DNA from: Dehalobacter sp. DCA
GTDB taxonomy: Bacteria > Bacillota > Desulfitobacteriia > Desulfitobacteriales > Syntrophobotulaceae
Reading direction: 5' to 3'
Assembly: GCF_000305775.1 (NCBI RefSeq)
Contig: NC_018866.1
Location: 930,001-994,000, forward strand
Length of the DNA: 64,000 nucleotides
The notes beneath the pieces were generated by a model. The model did no database searches. It was not told where the DNA came from and worked only from the letters and a program-made list of their open reading frames with translations. The position numbers and the translations under genes are program-made. How positions within the stretch are numbered: the first letter of the stretch is position 1; each line of letters starts with the position of its first letter. Positions 827 to 13,165 of the stretch are shown in pieces.

Positions 827-2487
827 CTGAAGTTTCGCACCCATAAAACAGCCGAAAATTCGGCTTAGAATAAGACGAAAAAACGATAAAAATCCGCATG
901 AACACTAGGTTTTTGGTATAATAAGATGCTACTCCAAATCAACCAAAAATGAGGTGTTATCATGCGGAAACCTGTCAAAGAAATTGAAAACGTACTCCAA
1001 AATCACGGCTATTCGATTAACAATATTATATGTGAAGTTATGAAGACGTTCAAGCTTAAAACGCTTTGCCGCAAAGTTGGTTTTCTGAAACAGGATGGTT
1101 ACAGTTCCGCGGAAATCCTCTCACTAATGTTGATGTTGCCCCTAATGTTACTGAAAAGTGTCCACGCGTTATATAAAAGCGATTTCCAAAAGGTTACTAC
1201 TATGAAGAAAGATTCCATATATCGACTGAAGAACAATGAAAAAATGCCTTGGAGAGCATTGCTGATCGGTATATCCAAACAGTTTCAACGATTGGTTAAT
1301 CCTACGAACGAAGTGGATGAAAAGTCCGCTTTCATTCTAGATGATACAACTCTTGCTAAGACAGGTCGAAGAATTGAACAAATGACCCAGGTGTTTGACC
1401 ATGTTGCAGGGAAGAAAGGTAGCAAATTAGGCTTTAAAAATTTAACCCTTGGTTTCTTCGATGGTAAAAGCCTCACGCCTATAGACTTCACTTTACAAGT
1501 GGAAAAGCCCTTAAAAAAGGCAAGGCACCGTAAAGAACGGTTCAAAAAGCAACGAGACCCCAAATCTGCTGGGGCTAAACGGATCAGAGAATGCCATGTT
1601 AGCAAAATTTCGAACGGTCTGGATATGATAAAACGGGCGGTAAAACAGGGGTTTAAGGCTAAATATGTCCTGGTTGACAGCTGGTTCAGCAGTTACGAGT
1701 TCATTCAAACGATTCGAGGATTAGACAAAAAATCGATGCATTTGGTCTGTGGTGTTCGGCAAGATACGAGGAAGTATCGCTACAAAGAGACTTCCCTTAA
1801 TGCCAGCCAATTAAAATCGGTCCTCAAAAGTGAGGGAAACGAAAAACGCTGTAGGAAACGGAATATCCGTTATTTCGAAGTCCTTGTTGATTATGAAGGA
1901 ATCGGACAAATCAAACTGTATTTTTGCCGGTTTCCCTATCAAAAGAAATTTAGACTGTTCCTCTCGACGGATATATCTCTTAGTTTATTGAGTATGTTGG
2001 AGATTTACAGTATCCGTTGGACCATCGAAGTCTTTTTTAAGGAAGCCAAGCAGCATTTGAAGCTCGGGACTTGTCAATCGAGGGATTTCGATGCGCAGAT
2101 TGCCCATATCACGACCTGCTATCTCCTCTATACACTCCTAGCCTATTTTCGACGAGTAAACGCCTACGAATCCTTAGAAGGATTATTTGCGGAAATCAAG
2201 GACGAACTCATAGAGAAGAATGTAGCGGAGCGGCTCTGGGAATTATTTGATGATTTGCTGCAAGTGGTGATCACCAGCATCGCCAAGTCTGGTTTAGTGG
2301 ACATTTTGGAATTTAGGAATTCCAGTGAATATGAACATTTGAAAGAACTATTTGAGAATTCTTTTCTTAGTAATCAGCTTATAGCCCTTAAAAATGCCAG
2401 TTAATCGGTAATAATCAGAAGGAACCACTGGCATTAGGATACCTTTAAATTAGAGATACAAGGGTTTTGAGGGGTGCGAAACTTCAG
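827..2487 (+). mobile_element. IS4-family insertion sequence, 1661 bp
   Basis: The element is bounded by perfect 16 bp terminal inverted repeats, CTGAAGTTTCGCACCC at 827-842 and its complement at 2472-2487. It is flanked by a 7 bp direct duplication TTATTAA at 820-826 and 2488-2494. It carries one transposase gene. A short hairpin at 850-867 lies between the left end and a TATAAT-containing promoter near 917. Intact ends, intact duplication and an intact transposase frame point to a recent insertion into the FGE-like cassette gene. Confidence 0.95.
962..2404 (+). CDS. IS4-family DDE transposase
   Basis: A 480-residue transposase filling the IS. Catalytic acidic residues are visible at about D127/D128 (ILDDTT), D239 (LVDSWF) and E356. 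Around the last lies Y349-R352-E356-K363, an exact match to the Y-(2)-R-(3)-E-(6)-K signature of IS4-family enzymes. The N-terminal about 110 residues are probably the DNA-binding part. The frame is intact from ATG to stop with no internal frameshift, so the element may be active. It would act on the 16 bp terminal repeats at 827-842 and 2472-2487. Confidence 0.92.
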   Translation: MRKPVKEIENVLQNHGYSINNIICEVMKTFKLKTLCRKVGFLKQDGYSSAEILSLMLMLPLMLLKSVHALYKSDFQKVTTMKKDSIYRLKNNEKMPWRALLIGISKQFQRLVNPTNEVDEKSAFILDDTTLAKTGRRIEQMTQVFDHVAGKKGSKLGFKNLTLGFFDGKSLTPIDFTLQVEKPLKKARHRKERFKKQRDPKSAGAKRIRECHVSKISNGLDMIKRAVKQGFKAKYVLVDSWFSSYEFIQTIRGLDKKSMHLVCGVRQDTRKYRYKETSLNASQLKSVLKSEGNEKRCRKRNIRYFEVLVDYEGIGQIKLYFCRFPYQKKFRLFLSTDISLSLLSMLEIYSIRWTIEVFFKEAKQHLKLGTCQSRDFDAQIAHITTCYLLYTLLAYFRRVNAYESLEGLFAEIKDELIEKNVAERLWELFDDLLQVVITSIAKSGLVDILEFRNSSEYEHLKELFENSFLSNQLIALKNAS

Positions 2488-3127
2488 TTATTAATATCTC
2501 CGTATCTAACTTCTTTTTTTCCACCTTGACATGCATATTGCCATTCTGCTTCGGTCGGGAGTCGATAGCCGTCTTCTTCTTTATTACATGTGACTATATT
2601 TCCTTCACTGCTTATTGAGTAGTATTCTGACAATCCTTCATTTTGAGATAGCAGATTGCAAAACTCTATCGCTTCACTCCAAGAAATATTCTCGACAGGG
2701 TTTCGATCTCCTTTGAAAGCAAAAGGAGATTTTTGGGTAATAGCAAAATATACATCTTGCGTTACCGGATATTTTGATAAGAGAAAGGGCTGTATTTCAA
2801 CCTTCCATGTATGTTTTATTCTATCGTCTCTCAATTCTATTTCTCCATATGGAATTCTTACCATTTCATCATTAAAAAGGTTCTTTAGTCCTCTATTCAT
2901 TCTATCTCCCTCTAAGCCATATTCTGTTTGTTTCGCTATATCCAACAAATATGTATAATCCGATCATTAATTCGTTCTTTTCCAATCCGCGCATGGATGC
3001 GCGGCGTCCCGCATGGTCTTTCGTCGTCACGGTAGAGATGCCGGTCGCCCGACACCCCCCGCACAGATCCCGGCGTGCGGAACTACCGCACCGGGCTCTT
3101 CAAGAGTATTCGCTTCCGTAATAAAGC

Positions 3128-4474
3128 TTAAAACCCAAAGCTAAGCTGCTTCTGGTTTGTTTCGACTATCCTTGGGGTTAGTACTCCATACCTTTTTAAT
3201 ACCCTATTAAACTCGCTCCAATCAAAGCTTTTCCTTTGACTCCTTCTATTCAGCCATTTGTACAGGGTTTTCATTGCCTGTTCGTAGAATTCTCTCAGCC
3301 TTCCAGAGTTTCCTATCAGCCCATAGTAGTTGTAATAGCCCCTTAATTTGCTGTTTAGCTCCGGGAACAATCGTCTTAGTCTTTTGTTCCGGTTCTCTCT
3401 GCACCATTCTTTGAAGTTTGCCAGGGACTTCCTTAACCTTTTCCTGGCTGTTCTCCTGGTGATTATTGTTTTCCCCCGGCGAGATACTCCCCATCGAAAT
3501 TCGAACCCCAAGTATTCAAAGCTGCTGCTTTGTTTTCTCAACCATCGATTGAATTGGATGATTTGGGTCTTATCCACTGCCAGTTCCAGTCCGAATTTCT
3601 CTAACCGTTTAGGTAGCGACCTGTAGAATTTGTCGGCATCTCCTTTATATTGGAACGCACATACAAAATCATCGCAGTACCTGCATAGATACGCTTCTCC
3701 TTCGCAGTTTGGTTTTACTATCTTCTCAAACCATAGGTCAAGTACATAGTGCAGATAAGTATTCGCTAGTATTGGACTAATGATTCCGCCTTGCGGACTT
3801 CCTGTTATTGGATGTTCCACTTCTCCATCCTGCTTTAAGATTCCTGCTTTGAGCCACTTTTTGATGAGTCCCAGAAATGCCTTGTCATCTATTCGTTGCT
3901 CTAGCATTCTTATTAGCCAAGCGTGGTCTATGTTTTGAAAGAATCCTTTGATGTCTGCTTCTACGATGTAGCTGTAGTCGCCATAGTTGAGTTCTTTGCT
4001 TAAGTCTTTGATTGCTGTGTGAGCACTGATTTTTGGCCGGTATCCATAACTACTTGCAAGGAAATCCTGCTCATAGATGGCTTCCAATATCTTTGCCGCT
4101 GCGCTCTGCACGAGCTTATCCGCTATGGCTGGTATTCCCAGCGGTCTTGTTTTTCCTTCCCCTTTCGGTATGTCTACCCTTCGTAACAACTTTGCCCGAT
4201 ATCTTTTCTTTTCCAGATGCTCTGCCAGGTTTTCTATGTTTTGCTTAAGCTCTTCTGCAAATTCCTTGGCTGTTACTTTGTCCACTCCGGCAGCTGCCTT
4301 TTTGTTGTTCGTTTTCCAGGCTTCTGTGAGTGAGCTGTAGTTGAGCATCCGGTATAAGTTGCGAAATCGATAGCTTTTAAGTCTTTTTGCTTTCTGTGCT
4401 ATTCCTTGCAGGGAAGTTCGCATCAATTTCTCCGATCCTGCTTGTCCGGTTGATGTTTCCTTTGCAAGCTGCAT
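3128..4474 (-). CDS. ltrA: Group II intron reverse transcriptase/maturase (IIC-like)
   Basis: A 448-residue intron-encoded protein. RT motifs are clear: RPLGIPAIADKLVQ, YGYRPKISAHTAI, GSPQGGIISPILANTYLH and the catalytic YCDDFV (YxDD with Cys in the variable position). A C-terminal maturase domain follows (FEYLGFEFRW, LNSKLRGYYNYYG). No HNH endonuclease domain is visible at the C-terminus, as is typical of class C introns, which use single-stranded or hairpin-associated targets. The protein would assist splicing and reverse-transcribe the intron into new attC-like sites. The start is the first Met; no competing start was resolved. Confidence 0.92.
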   Translation of the reverse strand: MQLAKETSTGQAGSEKLMRTSLQGIAQKAKRLKSYRFRNLYRMLNYSSLTEAWKTNNKKAAAGVDKVTAKEFAEELKQNIENLAEHLEKKRYRAKLLRRVDIPKGEGKTRPLGIPAIADKLVQSAAAKILEAIYEQDFLASSYGYRPKISAHTAIKDLSKELNYGDYSYIVEADIKGFFQNIDHAWLIRMLEQRIDDKAFLGLIKKWLKAGILKQDGEVEHPITGSPQGGIISPILANTYLHYVLDLWFEKIVKPNCEGEAYLCRYCDDFVCAFQYKGDADKFYRSLPKRLEKFGLELAVDKTQIIQFNRWLRKQSSSFEYLGFEFRWGVSRRGKTIITRRTARKRLRKSLANFKEWCRENRNKRLRRLFPELNSKLRGYYNYYGLIGNSGRLREFYEQAMKTLYKWLNRRSQRKSFDWSEFNRVLKRYGVLTPRIVETNQKQLSFGF

Positions 4475-4921
4475 ACTCTCGTTAACCCCTTCCCCATGTA
4501 GCCGGCTTTCCCGACCTCAGAGTAGTATGGGTTAATCCGACTCCCTGTCTGTCATCAACCTTCCTCTTTTTCGATTGGTAAGTCCTACCGGCTTTCGCCG
4601 GAACAAACAGGGTCTCCCAAGTTCCTGATCCTTCTCTCCATACATGCCATGTTCTCTGACCCCGGCAGACCCTCGGGAATCTTGCCTTTTCGATCCCTCT
4701 GTGTTGGCTTCCGTGACGTTAAACACGTCGCCATCTGCATTTATCACGTTTACGAGGCTGAATTTGCTTCAGGAGTTACGGTTCCCCCTATGGCCTATAT
4801 AGTTCTCTGTGTACGCTTCGCCTTACTGTTGCCAGTTTCGGCGCAACACTCGATATGGGTGGTTGGCTAGACCTTACCCAGCAAGGACTTTCACCTTGCA
4901 AGAAGTACCAAGCTTTGCTTG
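4475..4921 (-). ncRNA. Group II intron 1, 5' structured RNA region
   Basis: This gap between the RT start and the intron 5' end contains no convincing gene. On the minus strand it begins with the GTGCGCC end and then has GCAAGGTGAAAGTCC, typical of group II domain I 5' parts. It should fold into domains I-IV of the ribozyme. Confidence 0.7.
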
Positions 4922-5058
4922 GCGCACTAACGTTTCGCGTGTTTACGACGCGCCCCAACCACATTCATATTGGCAAAGTGTCGTAAACACGCTGTTATGT
5001 AAAGTTGGACGGCCCGAAATTCAGAGCCGACCACGGATGGGAGGCCCATAAACATTTA

Positions 5059-5593: not shown

Positions 5594-5669
5594 ATATAAC
5601 GTCTCGAGAATTTACGTAGCGTCTTTCCACATGCATCATTTGCAAAGTTACGTAAATTCTCTGTTCTAC
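5594..5669. other. attC-like recombination site 3
   Basis: Left box ATATAAC (5594-5600), 6/7 complementary to the GTTATGT box of site 2 (the mismatch would be a G-T pair). 5 nt spacer, 13 bp stem GAGAATTTACGTA with its complement in 5648-5661, loop with ACATGCAT, right box GTTCTAC (5663-5669). A perfect hairpin GCGCGACA-CGA-TGTCGCGC lies to the left at 5560-5578. Confidence 0.88.
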
Positions 5670-6149: not shown

Positions 6150-6237
6150 TTAACCGCTCCTCATTGATTTGCTTGATTTGAAAATAATTACCCAGTCTTC
6201 ACCGCGCCATGGATGGCGCGTTTTTGCACGATATGTC

Positions 6238-6313
6238 GTAGAACGTGCCCGGTATTACCGTAGTGTCCTAATAACATGCATCTTTGCAAAGTTACGGTAA
6301 TACCGTGTTATCG
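6238..6313. other. attC-like recombination site 4
   Basis: Left box GTAGAAC (6238-6244) is the exact complement of GTTCTAC in site 3. 5 nt spacer, 13 bp stem CGGTATTACCGTA, loop with ACATGCAT, one spacer base, right box GTTATCG (6307-6313). Hairpins flank both sides: CGCGCC-ATGGAT-GGCGCG at 6203-6220 and GTGCGAC-AGGAC-GTCGCAC at 6340-6358. Confidence 0.9.
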
Positions 6314-6432
6314 GATGGATGAGGCCCCCCGAAGCCAGAGTGCGACAGGACGTCGCACCCTTAAAAATGCCTATAGGCAAAAATGGTTTCTGCTCTATAA
6401 ACCTCTTTTTTATGAAACTATAATAAGAAGAC

Positions 6433-6654
6433 CTATTCTATCCTCTCATAGGGATAAATATTCTTAAAGTTCCTGTGTAAATAAGAGCCAATTGAAGGTG
6501 CATTTAACAAGCCTTCAAATTCATGCATAGGTACTCCTTTATAGCTATAAAGTGTCCCATTGAGAAAACGAACATAAGTAATTTCATTTTCCTTATCATA
6601 ACCTACACTTTCTATATTAGAAGAACTTACAGGAACCATTTCAACATCTATCAT
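6433..6654 (-). CDS. KTSC-domain protein
   Basis: 73 residues from the ATG at 6652-6654, preceded by GGGGGAAG. The sequence VSSSNIESVGYD...YVRFLNGTLYSYKGVPMHEFEGLLNAPSIGSYLHRNFKN is a complete KTSC domain, a small fold of unknown function that occurs alone or fused to other proteins. The gene starts 11 nt after the HerA stop in the same transcript, so it is the third gene of the SIR2-HerA cassette. It may be an accessory of the defence pair or an independent passenger. Confidence 0.85.
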   Translation of the reverse strand: MIDVEMVPVSSSNIESVGYDKENEITYVRFLNGTLYSYKGVPMHEFEGLLNAPSIGSYLHRNFKNIYPYERIE

Positions 6655-6665
6655 TTTGCTTCCCC

Positions 6666-8441
6666 CTATAATTTTTGATTTCTCCAAAGAGATATCAATT
6701 CTTTATAATCATCTATTTTTGGTTCTTTTTCTTCCATCCATTTCTCTGAAACTTTCGGGTCTGAACTTTTATGAGCATTGGGAAGTTTGTAAAACTGAAT
6801 CCTCGAGGGAATTCTAACTCCTTCACCCGAAATTATTCCTTCACCAGTTCTTAAACTTGGCAACAAATCAATCATTGTTTGAAGTTCATCTTGAATTGCT
6901 GCACGAATATGTCCTCTATCTTTTGAATTATTCATGCGTAAAGCTATAATTGTACCACATTGACTTAATACCGTTTCATCTAATTCCGAAGGCCTTTGTG
7001 TTACTAAGCCTAATCCAACGCCGTATTTTCTACCTTCTTTAGCAATAGTTTGTACTGTCTTAGATGATATTGATTTTTCTCCGGCTTGAAGATAATTATG
7101 AGCTTCTTCTAATACAATAAGTAACGGTTGTTCTTTTCCTCCTATTTTAAGATTCTGTCCCCAAAATAAAGCATCATAAATTATTTTCAATAATGTCCCC
7201 GAAATTGATGTCATTATTTCGCTGGGAATCCCCGATAGGTCTAAAATTGTAATAGGTTCTTCACTGCCAAGCCAATTAAACAATAAATCACTCAAATCTT
7301 TATTGACTTCACCCTTTAAGTTGGGCGTATAATCACCTGGTTGAAACAAGAAATTATATGTCGAATCTTTCAATTTCAATCTTACACTATCAAGAAAACT
7401 TAAAATTCCCTTTGCTTGATTATTTAAGAAAGGCGCACCCCCTCCAGCACTTGCAGGTTGATACTCATTAGACATTAAATTTTCCGCATTACCTTCAATT
7501 TTTTTTGCTGTCTTCTTTTCAGGATTTGCTCTTTCTTGAAAAGTTTGTCTCTCAAAATCATCTAATTCAAACCACAATTGTTTAATACTAAATGGTATTG
7601 GAGAATCTGCAGTAACAAGTTCCTTTTCTATCTCGATTGCATTCTTTTCAACGGAATCTAATTTTGATTCAACAATTTTTGTTCTTATATAATCACGATT
7701 TTGATCAGTCAGATTTCCAGAAAAGATGCTCATTAATTCATTGAAAGGTAAAGCCCAAAAAGGAATATACAGCTCCTTTTCACTATCAGCTCTAATTTTA
7801 TAGACATTACTTTTGCCTTTTAAAACGCTATTATATTCACCATGAGGGTCAATAACAAGAATTCTACAACTCTTATAATCCTTATTGGCAATTGCATTTA
7901 AAATTACTCCAACTGAGTTTGATTTTCCACTACCTGTCGAGCCAAGAACCGCGAAGTGGCGAGCGATCAGTTTATCAAGATCAAGTTTTGCGTTTAGGCT
8001 CTCAGAGATACTAATATTACCAATATTAATTGAGTTTTTCTCATCATAGCCACCATAAATAACATCTAAATCTTTAATGGTTACTAAATGAACTGCGTCG
8101 CCCGTCGTAGGGGATTGAGAGACCCCTCGTGCAAATTTGTTACCGATTTGTTCTCCAACTAAAACCATATTAAGCCATTGTCTATTATCCATTTGCGTAT
8201 AATCTTCGATAATAGCTTCCTTAATCCGATCTGGAATAGCTGCAGCACCAATTTGCGTTACTATCCCATAAAGATTTGCATAACCAAGAGGAACTTTCAG
8301 GAATGATCCTATCTGCCCAATACGGTATACAATCCCCTCTATAACAGGCATATTTGATTTCATATTGTCAGAGAGTTGAACTGTAATCACATTTCCACTA
8401 ACACTGACAATTTCTCCAATTTCTGTTTGTATATCATTCAT
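6666..8441 (-). CDS. herA: HerA-like ATPase of a SIR2-HerA defence pair
   Basis: 591 residues. An N-terminal HAS-barrel-like region (about 1-100) is followed by a RecA-type FtsK/HerA ATPase: Walker A GSTGSGKS at 167-174, DPHGEY at about 198-203, Walker B LLIVLEEAH at 440-448, and sensor-like TQRPSELD at 481-488. HerA proteins form hexamers. In bacteria, HerA ATPases encoded next to SIR2-domain proteins make anti-phage complexes that hydrolyse NAD. The start overlaps the SIR2 stop by 4 nt (ATGA), so the two are translationally coupled. It lies in a 3.5 kb cassette bounded by complementary attC-like boxes. Confidence 0.9.
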   Translation of the reverse strand: MNDIQTEIGEIVSVSGNVITVQLSDNMKSNMPVIEGIVYRIGQIGSFLKVPLGYANLYGIVTQIGAAAIPDRIKEAIIEDYTQMDNRQWLNMVLVGEQIGNKFARGVSQSPTTGDAVHLVTIKDLDVIYGGYDEKNSINIGNISISESLNAKLDLDKLIARHFAVLGSTGSGKSNSVGVILNAIANKDYKSCRILVIDPHGEYNSVLKGKSNVYKIRADSEKELYIPFWALPFNELMSIFSGNLTDQNRDYIRTKIVESKLDSVEKNAIEIEKELVTADSPIPFSIKQLWFELDDFERQTFQERANPEKKTAKKIEGNAENLMSNEYQPASAGGGAPFLNNQAKGILSFLDSVRLKLKDSTYNFLFQPGDYTPNLKGEVNKDLSDLLFNWLGSEEPITILDLSGIPSEIMTSISGTLLKIIYDALFWGQNLKIGGKEQPLLIVLEEAHNYLQAGEKSISSKTVQTIAKEGRKYGVGLGLVTQRPSELDETVLSQCGTIIALRMNNSKDRGHIRAAIQDELQTMIDLLPSLRTGEGIISGEGVRIPSRIQFYKLPNAHKSSDPKVSEKWMEEKEPKIDDYKELISLWRNQKL

Positions 8442-9736
8442 TCATGTTGTCCCCCATATGGCTTATTTTGTAAGATCATGGATTGGAGAAAAGTCACAAA
8501 TTTCGCAAAATCAGATAGTATCACTTCTCCTTCTCCCGTCCAATTTTGACCTCCTTTTTTGACTTCTTCTTTCGGATCATCAACATTTAACGGGCCATCT
8601 TCATCGAAATATAGATTAACATTAATTGTATCTTCTTTATCTGGTTCTCTCTTTAATCTCCATTTTCCATACTGACAACCAATTACGGCATTACGACAAC
8701 CTAAGACAGAGATTTTACCGTTTGCTTTACCTAGTTTTGCTAGATTTGAATCTTCTAATAATGTATAACCGTTTCTTTTTCCATCTTTCCAAAGAATATC
8801 ATAGTATAAAACATATACGTGGGCAGCTGTATTAGATTTTAATGCTGTTAAAATTCTTTCGTTAATATGTAAGTCTCCAAATGAATATCCACAAATAATA
8901 AGGATCGTATCCGGTTGTTTAAGAAAATTTGTCAACCTATCCATCAATGCTATATAAGGTTGCTTTTTAGAATCAGCATATTTTAGCGTAGATGGATAAA
9001 TCAAAATATCTTGACAATCAGAATCCCTTCTCCAAACCTTTTCAATATTTTTGTCAATATCACTATCTAAATGCCAGCCTAAAGAGCCATGTAATTTCCA
9101 AAGTTTTGTTTGCTTGGGTAAATAGGATAAATCATCAACTGATTCAGGAAAGAAAAAGGGCTTATAACTCCCTGAAAACCCATCAAAATATGGAATATTT
9201 TTCTCTTCCATACCTAATTCTAAAAAATAGTCGTAATTTGTTGTAAAAATTTCTACAGCACACTTCCTATCAGCACGACCAATCCACTCTGCAAAATCAA
9301 CATGTATTAGGTTGCTTAGTTCTTTTTTCTCTAGTATTTTCTCATGAACACAAACAATTTCTCTAATTTGATTCTTTGTTTCAACTATTAAAGAATCAAA
9401 GTCACCCAATTTGAGACCATTTAAAATTCCATTTCCAATAATATGTTTTTTCTCTTCTATGTTAGAAAGAAATGTTTCAATGTTAAATTCTTTTTCACCT
9501 ATTTCTTGTTTTATTTCGGATATAGCAGATTTGTATTTTTCCGTTTTGCTTAGCTCTGTTTCAATCATTTTAGTCATCTTCCCAATAGCAGGAACAACTA
9601 AAGATGTTTCATTTTTCTTTGCTAAGGAAGTTCCTGCTCCAAACAAAAATGCAATTTTCTTCTTGTCTGATATTAACAGTTGTTGTAACCCTCTGATATA
9701 CTCTGATGGATCATGCGTTATTTCATTCATTTTCAT
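8438..9736 (-). CDS. SIR2-domain protein of a SIR2-HerA defence pair
   Basis: 432 residues with SIR2-family NAD-binding motifs: FLFGAGTS (GAGTS at 33-37), FTTNYDYFLE (TTNYD at about 165-169) and WKLHGSLGW with the candidate catalytic His at about 216. The C-terminal GYSFGDLHINERIL is also typical of SIR2 defence proteins. Such proteins act as NADases that deplete NAD on phage infection. It is the first gene of the SIR2-HerA-KTSC operon; start ATG with AGGAGGAAAAGG just upstream. Strongly AT-rich, unlike the chromosomal genes downstream of 13.6 kb. Confidence 0.9.
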   Translation of the reverse strand: MKMNEITHDPSEYIRGLQQLLISDKKKIAFLFGAGTSLAKKNETSLVVPAIGKMTKMIETELSKTEKYKSAISEIKQEIGEKEFNIETFLSNIEEKKHIIGNGILNGLKLGDFDSLIVETKNQIREIVCVHEKILEKKELSNLIHVDFAEWIGRADRKCAVEIFTTNYDYFLELGMEEKNIPYFDGFSGSYKPFFFPESVDDLSYLPKQTKLWKLHGSLGWHLDSDIDKNIEKVWRRDSDCQDILIYPSTLKYADSKKQPYIALMDRLTNFLKQPDTILIICGYSFGDLHINERILTALKSNTAAHVYVLYYDILWKDGKRNGYTLLEDSNLAKLGKANGKISVLGCRNAVIGCQYGKWRLKREPDKEDTINVNLYFDEDGPLNVDDPKEEVKKGGQNWTGEGEVILSDFAKFVTFLQSMILQNKPYGGQHE

Positions 9737-9845
9737 TTCCTTTTCCTCCTCAACTGTCGTTTTTCAACACACTCTATTCACTGCCAGCCAACAACACTAA
9801 ATGTTAATAACCGCCGCAGGACGCTGCGGCCTTGCCTCATCTTTC

Positions 9846-9922
9846 CGATAACGGCTTGCGAACTCCCGAAGTCTGCATATTACATTCATATTCTCTCAGA
9901 TTTTGGGAGTTCGCTGTTAGGC
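9846..9922. other. attC-like recombination site 5
   Basis: Left box CGATAAC (9846-9852) is the exact complement of GTTATCG in site 4, across a 3.5 kb cassette. 5 nt spacer, 10 bp stem GCGAACTCCC (plus near pairs), loop with ACATTCAT, one spacer base, right box GTTAGGC (9916-9922). Hairpin GCCGCAG-GACG-CTGCGGC at 9813-9830. Confidence 0.9.
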
Positions 9923-10686: not shown

Positions 10687-10763
10687 GCCTAACGTCCTGC
10701 GAATTTGCGAAGTCTGGTTATTACATTCATATCCTCTCAGATTTTGCAAATTCGCTGTTCTGC
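10687..10763. other. attC-like recombination site 6
   Basis: Left box GCCTAAC (10687-10693) is the exact complement of GTTAGGC in site 5 and matches the canonical RYYYAAC. 5 nt spacer, stem GCGAATTTGC paired with GCAAATTCGC, loop with ACATTCAT, one spacer base, right box GTTCTGC (10757-10763). Hairpin CCGCGC-ATGGAT-GCGCGG at 10651-10668 is identical to the one left of site 2. Confidence 0.9.
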
Positions 10764-10873
10764 GACGTATCGTGGTAGAGTGAAAGGCTGAGTTATCAGC
10801 CCCTCCTCATCAAACCGTACGTGAGGTTTTCCCTCATACGGCTTTCCGATGTTCGTCATTTATGAGCTTTCGG

Positions 10874-12193
10874 TTATGCAAGTTTTAAAAGATTATGCTG
10901 TTTTAACATCGCACCCACTTGACGCCATACGCTTGTGCGGCGTCTTTTTGTTTTCTTGGTATAGTAACGGCAGAATCGCTCAAGAACGTACCAATCCAGT
11001 TTCGCCATTTTATCATGGCTGTATGGCGTGGCATAATAATTCTTCCATCCACGGATTTTGGGGTTGAGATATTCTACATGGTCTTCGACTGAGAGCATTC
11101 GTGCTGACGGTGGAGCCAGTCTTTGTTTAATCTCATCCCGTATATGTTGTTCTGCCTTCTTACTCAGCCATTGCTGAGTCGTGTAATATACCTGCGCTTT
11201 TGATGTTTCTGCTTTGGTTTTCCGATGGTGCATCCCTAAAAAGTCAAAGCCTTCTTCCCCGGTCCACATCCCAACAAGTCTTGTTTTCGTGGGATGTAAG
11301 GTTAAATCCAGTCTTTTCATGATGGCCTGCACGATAACCATTGCTTTGTCTGCGTCCTTTTTGGTTTTGCAGATAATCACAAAGTCATCAGCGTACCTTG
11401 TTAGTTCTCCACTCTCTTTACCATGCTTTTCCCATAATAGGTCAAGTACGTTTAAGTAGATATTGGATAATAGCGGCGAAATGACTCCACCTTGCGGGGT
11501 TCCGATGTCTGTTCGGGTAATTACCCCTTCTTCCATAACGCCTGCCTTAAACCATTTCCTTATGAGTTTCAATACTTTCTTATCGCTGATCCGCATCTCG
11601 ACTAGCTTCATCAGTTTTTCCTGGTTAATGTTGTCAAAGTAAGACTGGATATCAACGTCGCATACCCAGTTACCTTTACGGTTACAGGCTTTTCTCACTC
11701 GGTCTAGGGCTTGTTTGGCACTGCGTTTTGGCCTAAAGCCGTAGGATGATTCGTGGAAATCTGCTTCAAAGATTGGCTCGATTACCAGTTTGACCGCCAT
11801 CTGAATGACTCTGTCTCGGATGACTGGGATTCCTAAGGGTCTCATTTTTCCGTCTTTCTTGGGAATATACTGTCTGCGTACCGGCATAGGTCGATAGTTG
11901 TTTTCTTTTAGGCTGCGCTGGCATGTTAGGAGAAATTTCTCTACTCCCATTTCTTCGATGTCACTTAATGTCTGCTTGTCGATGCCGGCTGCTCCTTTGT
12001 TGGCTCTTACTTTACGCCATGCTTCTTCCAGTACATCCCACCGGTAAACCTTGTCATACAGTGCGTGAAATCTTCTTTTCTTGCTCTCCTTGGCTGCATA
12101 ACCTAGCTTTTCTTGGAGTTCTTGAACTTTTTCTTTGGGTGTAGTTAGCCTTACGGCATTCACTATTCTTACCTCCTCGAATTGCTTGAACAA
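10874..12193 (-). CDS. ltrA: Group II intron reverse transcriptase/maturase
   Basis: 439 residues with RT motifs RPLGIPVIRDRVIQ, YGFRPKRSAKQAL, GTPQGGVISPLLSNIYLN and catalytic RYADDFVI, followed by a maturase domain (FDFLGMHHRK, LNPKIRGWKNYYA). Only distantly similar to the other RT in the window: different motif details and YADD rather than YCDD. No clear HNH endonuclease motif. It would promote splicing and mobility of the host intron. Two unrelated group II introns have thus invaded sites in the same array. Confidence 0.92.
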   Translation of the reverse strand: MFKQFEEVRIVNAVRLTTPKEKVQELQEKLGYAAKESKKRRFHALYDKVYRWDVLEEAWRKVRANKGAAGIDKQTLSDIEEMGVEKFLLTCQRSLKENNYRPMPVRRQYIPKKDGKMRPLGIPVIRDRVIQMAVKLVIEPIFEADFHESSYGFRPKRSAKQALDRVRKACNRKGNWVCDVDIQSYFDNINQEKLMKLVEMRISDKKVLKLIRKWFKAGVMEEGVITRTDIGTPQGGVISPLLSNIYLNVLDLLWEKHGKESGELTRYADDFVIICKTKKDADKAMVIVQAIMKRLDLTLHPTKTRLVGMWTGEEGFDFLGMHHRKTKAETSKAQVYYTTQQWLSKKAEQHIRDEIKQRLAPPSARMLSVEDHVEYLNPKIRGWKNYYATPYSHDKMAKLDWYVLERFCRYYTKKTKRRRTSVWRQVGAMLKQHNLLKLA

Positions 12194-12677
12194 AGCAGAG
12201 GCCCTTCCCTCCAGCAGGTTGTGTTGTCCTGCTGTTCCTGGGTACTATGGCCTCCTCCGACTCCCTTCCTGCAAATTACCATTTCACCTTTTGGCTTATA
12301 GGTTCTCTCTTTACAAGTTCCCTTGTGCAGAGTAGGGTCTCCCCAGTTCACTGCATTATCTTTGTTACCATACCGCTCTCTCTACGCCGAGAGGTTCTTC
12401 GATGCTGCTCCAAGTTCTTTGCATCTTCCATGGCCTTCGTCCATGAGGGCGAGACTCGGCTCCTCTTTTTCCCCTTGCGAGGCCTGATTGACGACGCGGC
12501 AAGATTCACTTGATGTTACGGTCTGGTGACTTGCTCGCCCTTTCATTGAAAGGTACTTCTGTCGATGCGCCTCTACGCACAGATTTCTCTCTACGCAGGC
12601 ATCCTAGCTACGGGGCGCCTTGGCACTTACCCCGACTGGACTTCCACCAGTTAGATAATGCGTGCTTAGCTGGGCAC
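12194..12677 (-). ncRNA. Group II intron 2, 5' structured RNA region
   Basis: The region upstream of the RT contains no gene-like frame with a ribosome binding site. By position it is ribozyme domains I-IV. It begins at the GTGCCCAGC end and is GC-rich compared with the AT-rich cassette genes. Confidence 0.65.
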
Positions 12678-12783
12678 GCCCCTCAGACTCAGGCAGCGCC
12701 ACGGACGGCGCTGCCTTGAATTCACCCGTAATGCCTCTAATGCGCAAAATTAGAATGATGCACATTAATATTTAAAAATTACA

Positions 12784-13088: not shown

Positions 13089-13165
13089 GTAGAACGTTTT
13101 TTTCCGAACTAGTTTCGTATTATATCTATATTTGGTGGTATTTCCGAACATGGTTCGGGAATATT
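13089..13165. other. Terminal, degenerate attC-like or attI-like site 7
   Basis: Left box GTAGAAC (13089-13095) is 6/7 complementary to GTTCTGC of site 6, so it closes the last cassette; a hairpin CCGCGCCA/TGGCGCGG lies at 13052-13071. To the right the arms are irregular (CCGAACTAG near 13104, CCGAACATGGTTCGG at 13144-13158), and no GTT box follows at the expected place. It is either a decayed site or the array's primary attachment site; the sequence alone cannot decide. Confidence 0.6.

Follow-up and report, generated by a model that had tools for sequence, protein, structure and literature searches.

A three-gene SIR2-HerA-KTSC operon carried in a single integron cassette of Dehalobacter sp. 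DCA

Three Genes Within One Cassette

The window analysed here, a stretch of 64,000 nucleotides (positions 930001–994000) of the complete 3,069,953-bp chromosome of Dehalobacter sp. DCA, contains SIR2, HerA and KTSC genes that all lie on the minus strand, are packed as a single operon and are flanked by two attC sites. The SIR2-like NADase (8438–9736, 432 residues) matches the PADLOC SIR2 model PDLC04093 at 373 bits and Pfam SIR2_2 at 54.8 bits, and its Asn167 and His216, an active site of the NADase type, are invariant across 15 relatives. Adjoining it is the gene of a HerA/FtsK-type ATPase (6666–8441, 591 residues; PADLOC HerA PDLC04105, 513 bits; DUF87, 138 bits), in which the Walker A motif GSTGSGKS and the EEAH motif are conserved; NADase and ATPase together make up the SIR2-HerA pair. 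The last gene (6433–6654) encodes a KTSC domain protein of 73 residues (PF13619, 80.9 bits against a cut-off of 25), which is matched by none of the PADLOC models. The overlapping or closely spaced starts noted in the original prediction, which had been made from the sequence alone, are borne out along with its gene assignments, as the SIR2 and HerA genes share 4 bp (ATGA) and the KTSC start codon (ATG, 6654) lies 11 bp past the HerA stop, preceded by a GGGGG Shine-Dalgarno sequence. All three open reading frames are intact.

The closest solved relatives of HerA (8wiv in the Protein Data Bank (PDB), E 4e-154) and of SIR2 (8w9l, E 4e-52) both come from one SIR2/HerA complex, and in the 696-residue chain of 8wiv residues 627–696 form a KTSC domain. 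An AlphaFold model of the window KTSC protein, with a predicted local distance difference test score (pLDDT) of 94 and the order E-E-E-E-H-H-E, matches the HerA chains of 8wld, 8wof and 8wiv with template modelling (TM) scores of 0.85–0.88, as well as the solo KTSC proteins 7x8c (TM 0.91) and 4rgi; family score and fold agree in identifying the domain. Because the HerA chains of these three complex structures carry it, KTSC is a physical part of the known SIR2/HerA assembly. The fold search with the KTSC model returned no further relative of note, and the argument for nucleic-acid binding therefore draws on a published statement that KTSC is DNA-binding (PMC9503650).

The borders of the cassette were located by a local-alignment inverted-repeat scan, which gives 0–2 weak matches per 13.5 kb of shuffled sequence, and by a covariance model trained solely on 21 attC sites from another genome, a set in which six of the nine stem pairs show compensatory changes. 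Both methods placed six minus-strand attC sites in the window at the same coordinates (E 1.6e-13 to 7.7e-12). The attC of the operon cassette (6238–6313, E = 3.6e-12) comprises its R'' box CGATAAC (6313–6307) and the R' box GTTCTAC of the next cassette (6244–6238), and the attC of the upstream cassette (9846–9922, E = 7.7e-12) contributes the R' box GTTATCG (9852–9846), which is the 5' edge of the operon cassette. Both sites fold better than 200 of 200 shuffles (z of −4.9 and −3.5, respectively), and the exactly complementary boxes GTTATCG/CGATAAC, which had been predicted to bound a single cassette, are found within them. The covariance search gave no attC between 6313 and 9846, i.e., none within the operon. 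The start of the cassette is complementary to its own end at 17 of 19 bases, compared with 9–11 of 19 for the ends of other window cassettes, and such matching of a cassette to its own end is a general rule both in the window array and in that of a second genome of the genus, G399. By this end complementarity, the whole excisable cassette on the minus strand measures 3,608 bp (6244–9851) and is cut G/TT to G/TT. The interval first proposed, 6308–9846, captured a real cassette but omitted its own attC, the excisable unit running from 9851 to 6244.

Occurrence in Other Arrays and Genomes

A search for attC sites near the remaining relatives, from Bacillota, plasmids and genomes, found the operon enclosed by such sites at two loci only, L122 and L034. 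The former belongs to G399, a complete 4.5-Mb genome, where the operon lies in an array of well over 20 attC sites; the cassette has the same GTTATCG/CGATAAC boxes as that of the window, different neighbour cassettes, and an IS21-type element between KTSC and its attC. The two cassettes share 81% DNA identity across 3,429 bp, starting at the cassette edge (box), compared with 74–77% for the leu/ilv genes beside the window array, a pattern that, from this one comparison, would fit exchange following divergence of the species, without proving it. The second locus, L034 (WGDO01000079.1), is labelled Patescibacteria, a label from unverified binning. Here the operon lies between 132-bp attC sites with the complementary boxes GTTAGGC/GCCTAAC; one of the two sites folds well (z −6.6) and the other weakly (z −1.4). 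Its DNA identity to the window, 73%, is confined to the three genes, and the cassette ends are unrelated; because homology stops at the genes, the operon, to judge by these sequences, became a cassette or changed its attC at least twice. The attC sites with R'' and R' boxes and a hairpin, the matched ends, and the different arrays and neighbours at L122 and L034 together identify an integron cassette, and the prediction that large multigene immune modules can move in this form is supported, with the operon present in three arrays and between attC sites of two types. A guessed DNA motif for attC gave no match in the genus, and a literature search on integrons in Dehalobacter found nothing relevant.

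The linkage of KTSC to this system was surveyed with a HerA profile across 84,980 species genomes together with Bacillota genomes, plasmids and IMG/VR contigs; the loci were picked by HerA similarity, not by KTSC, and a few are near-copies. KTSC is present in all 50 loci whose HerA scores at least 619 bits, as the next gene downstream in 48 and fused to HerA in two (L039, L135). The co-occurrence elsewhere that the original prediction had proposed for survey is thus found, with SIR2 upstream in 49 of the 50 and the remaining locus beginning at a contig edge. Below 619 bits, KTSC appears solely as a weak match in L061 (498 bits), and 17 lower-scoring loci have SIR2 and HerA without it. In a FastTree phylogeny of HerA, the KTSC loci form a single clade (support 100) of 52 rows, 51 of them KTSC-positive; the sole negative row, L153, ends at a contig edge. 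The clade is hosted by Bacillota, Pseudomonadota, Bacteroidota, Campylobacterota, Spirochaetota, Actinomycetota and Gemmatimonadota, occurs on plasmids and in proviruses, and includes one archaeon, Natrinema, in which it is plasmid-borne. Since few genomes hold KTSC at all (14 of 398 in Bacillota), chance cannot account for the linkage. The association at all 50 clade loci and the fusion to HerA in the solved complex make KTSC a built-in component of one SIR2-HerA subtype, partly visible in public data already, to which the window operon, with KTSC directly downstream of HerA, belongs. The suggestion of an undescribed third component therefore stands as to the third component; it is not wholly undescribed, being already fused to HerA in the solved complex and mentioned as a HerA-KTSC pair by Iyer et al. 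2022 (PMC9503650).

Two further settings were observed. In Natrinema, ADP-ribosylglycohydrolase genes follow the SIR2-HerA-KTSC operon (L028:5874-6851) and are perhaps an additional component of the system. At L169 (about 1447–3176), a KTSC gene is followed by one for an OLD-like ATPase, possibly a second defence setting for KTSC.

Recombinase and Surrounding Array

In the window genome, the sole recognised integron-type recombinase beside attC is decayed by stops and a frameshift, and for this reason the cell's own integrase can probably no longer move the cassette, which was presumably mobile in the past. An integron-integrase model applied at E 1e-40 found no match in 25 genomes of the family. 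In G399, an intact recombinase of 363 residues adjoins the attC array, and the recombinase without the integron-specific insert is recorded at L165:6212-7303 (minus strand) with L122 and L166, and also at L012, L125, L167 and L168. The G399 protein reaches 207 bits with the integron-integrase model, below the cut-off of 265, and 233 bits with a XerA model, above the cut-off of 220. Aligned to IntI4 (2a3v), it has 18 residues where IntI4 has 60, i.e., it is about 42 shorter at the insert, and by sequence it appears to lack this element, which has been described as required for attC recombination (PMC9668308; PMC7790495). The recombinase of the genus also has about 90 extra N-terminal residues, and the three further genomes of the genus hold fragments of it next to attC sites. 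An intact integrase with the additional domain, which marks a complete integron, is found neither in the window genome nor in G399. Array and recombinase of the genus possibly represent a non-canonical integron class that standard integron finders miss. We give even odds to the fuller proposal that attC cassettes in this class are moved by an Xer-like recombinase, with no I2 insert and an extra N-terminal region, and bear immune modules bigger than those described for known integrons, including SIR2-HerA-KTSC.

The remaining four minus-strand attC sites of the window array lie on either side of the operon cassette. Downstream lie that of a DUF5071 cassette (5594–5669, E = 8.7e-13; gene 6149–5763) and that of a glyoxalase-like cassette (4925–5000, E = 1.6e-13; gene 5589–5059), which a group II intron adjoins; another lies upstream of a membrane-protein cassette (10687–10763, E = 1.6e-12; gene 10447–10037), and one is found farther along the array (336–410, E = 5.2e-13). 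The ends of a cassette remain complementary for about 12 bases past the 7-base boxes, which lengthens the attC stem, and GC-rich hairpins occur just inside the cassette ends (6203–6220, about 9812–9829, and at other attC sites). Two group II introns, at about 3000–4920 and 10790–12690 with reverse transcriptases at 4474–3128 and 12193–10874, are inserted beside attC, like introns of the IIC-attC type. At 513–2948, an FGE-sulfatase-type gene (905–513, 2948–2484) is interrupted by a transposase gene (962–2404). Palindromes of the type CCGAAC-GTTCGG lie close to array ends (window about 13105–13165, L127:11514-11574, L128:16185-16241) and are possible candidates for attI or recombinase sites. The same chromosome has at least two more attC clusters, near 1.72 Mb and at 1.97–1.98 Mb (L012, L128), one of them beside the decayed recombinase.

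Proposed Mechanism and Alternatives

We interpret the locus, with a probability of about 0.8, as an antiphage operon of three genes (SIR2, HerA and KTSC) that a single integron cassette carries in full, with a mechanism analogous to that of the solved complexes. In relatives, a two-layer SIR2 dodecamer is bound by a HerA hexamer, and in one system, from Staphylococcus aureus, the NAD+ pocket opens once HerA is bound (summarised in PMC12198126). By analogy, the HerA hexamer of the window system would dock onto the SIR2 oligomer and activate it, and SIR2 would destroy NAD+ once infection is sensed, leading to abortive infection; NAD depletion and phage protection at this locus are thus predictions from its relatives. 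KTSC would most likely be bound to HerA stoichiometrically, as it is covalently in the fusions, and may take part in sensing or gating of the complex, perhaps through nucleic-acid binding. We lean slightly towards such a sensor or gate role on HerA.

Several observations weigh against this interpretation. The NCBIfam antiphage models score far below their cut-offs (SIR2 82 of 500 bits, HerA 240 of 850 bits), and the window pair is therefore, by sequence, a different subfamily from the equivalogs NF042942–NF042944. A search of the operon leader for a promoter gave no convincing one, which makes expression uncertain. KTSC is also found without HerA, in phage-like or unrelated settings, and only six of the 15 KTSC genes in the 398 Bacillota genomes adjoin this HerA. 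Finally, the sensing role of KTSC is argued by analogy only.

Among the alternatives, KTSC may belong to the complex but act as its brake, inhibiting HerA or SIR2 like an antitoxin, and not as a sensor or activator. It is small, encoded by the last gene and strictly linked, features that an immunity or antitoxin-type partner would also show; however, it is fused to HerA in three cases (8wiv, L039, L135), while antitoxins are seldom fused to their partners, and it is present in the cryo-electron microscopy chains of the assembled complex. Neither point is decisive, and we consider a brake clearly less probable than a sensor or gate. A similarly modest chance attaches to the cassette being silent dead weight in the window genome, with no working integrase and no promoter. 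The decayed recombinase, the lack of a canonical integron integrase among the 25 family genomes and the leader without a clear promoter speak for this, but the three reading frames remain intact, and the identity to L122 (81%), higher than that of the flanking leu/ilv genes (74–77%), suggests selection or recent exchange. That KTSC acts neither as sensor or gate nor as brake is somewhat less likely still. It is most improbable that KTSC is an independent passenger without function in the system: the KTSC genes remote from HerA would fit this, but the survey, with KTSC adjacent or fused at every one of the clade loci, already contradicts it. Least credible of all is the arrival of the three genes as separate cassettes whose attC sites have since been lost, for which nothing was found. 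Against it stand the absence of a scored internal attC, the tight packing of the genes (ATGA overlap, 11-bp gap), their occurrence in this order outside integrons across many phyla, and the mutual match of the two cassette ends.

Comparison with Known Systems

The SIR2-HerA pair was already known, and KTSC membership is implicit in the solved structure; what is new is that a three-gene immune complex occurs as a cassette, with attC sites of two kinds, and that the linkage of KTSC is strict. The antiphage SIR2/HerA complex (PDB 8WIV, 8WLD, 8WOF, 8W9L; released 2024) shares SIR2, HerA and the KTSC domain with the window, but KTSC is fused at the C-terminus of HerA in the 8WIV-type complex, whereas in the window it is a separate gene of an operon in an integron cassette. 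The catalogued SIR2-HerA systems (PADLOC; NCBIfam NF042942–NF042944) have the same two-gene core, and KTSC is not in the PADLOC models. Such two-gene descriptions omit a partner that is always present in one large subtype, and because it is always present, laboratory tests with SIR2 and HerA alone from the KTSC subtype may fail or mislead. Iyer et al. 2022 mention, as an unpublished observation, an arrangement in which HerA is paired with a KTSC gene and an endoDNase takes the place of the sirtuin (PMC9503650); it shares HerA and KTSC with the window, but has a nuclease where the window has a sirtuin.

As to the carrier, IntegronFinder 2.0 reported attC arrays for which no integrase was recognised (CALIN) in several Firmicutes genera, and one complete Bacillota integron was known, that of Limnochorda (PMC9024848); the arrays of the present genus differ from these in adjoining a recombinase without the integron-specific insert. 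The operon cassette occurs in a phylum, Bacillota, where integrons are considered rare. According to a review, integrons hold no defence systems with more than two genes (PMC12409362), and the window operon is an exception to this reported absence. In the work of Darracq 2025, Getz 2025 and Kieffer 2025 (as cited in PMC12409362 and PMC12444791), the antiphage cassettes of Vibrio and mobile integrons are small. They too are defence genes carried as cassettes, but that of the window holds three genes in 3.6 kb and lies in Bacillota, and a full three-gene complex in single cassettes of two attC types widens the size range of integron-borne defence.

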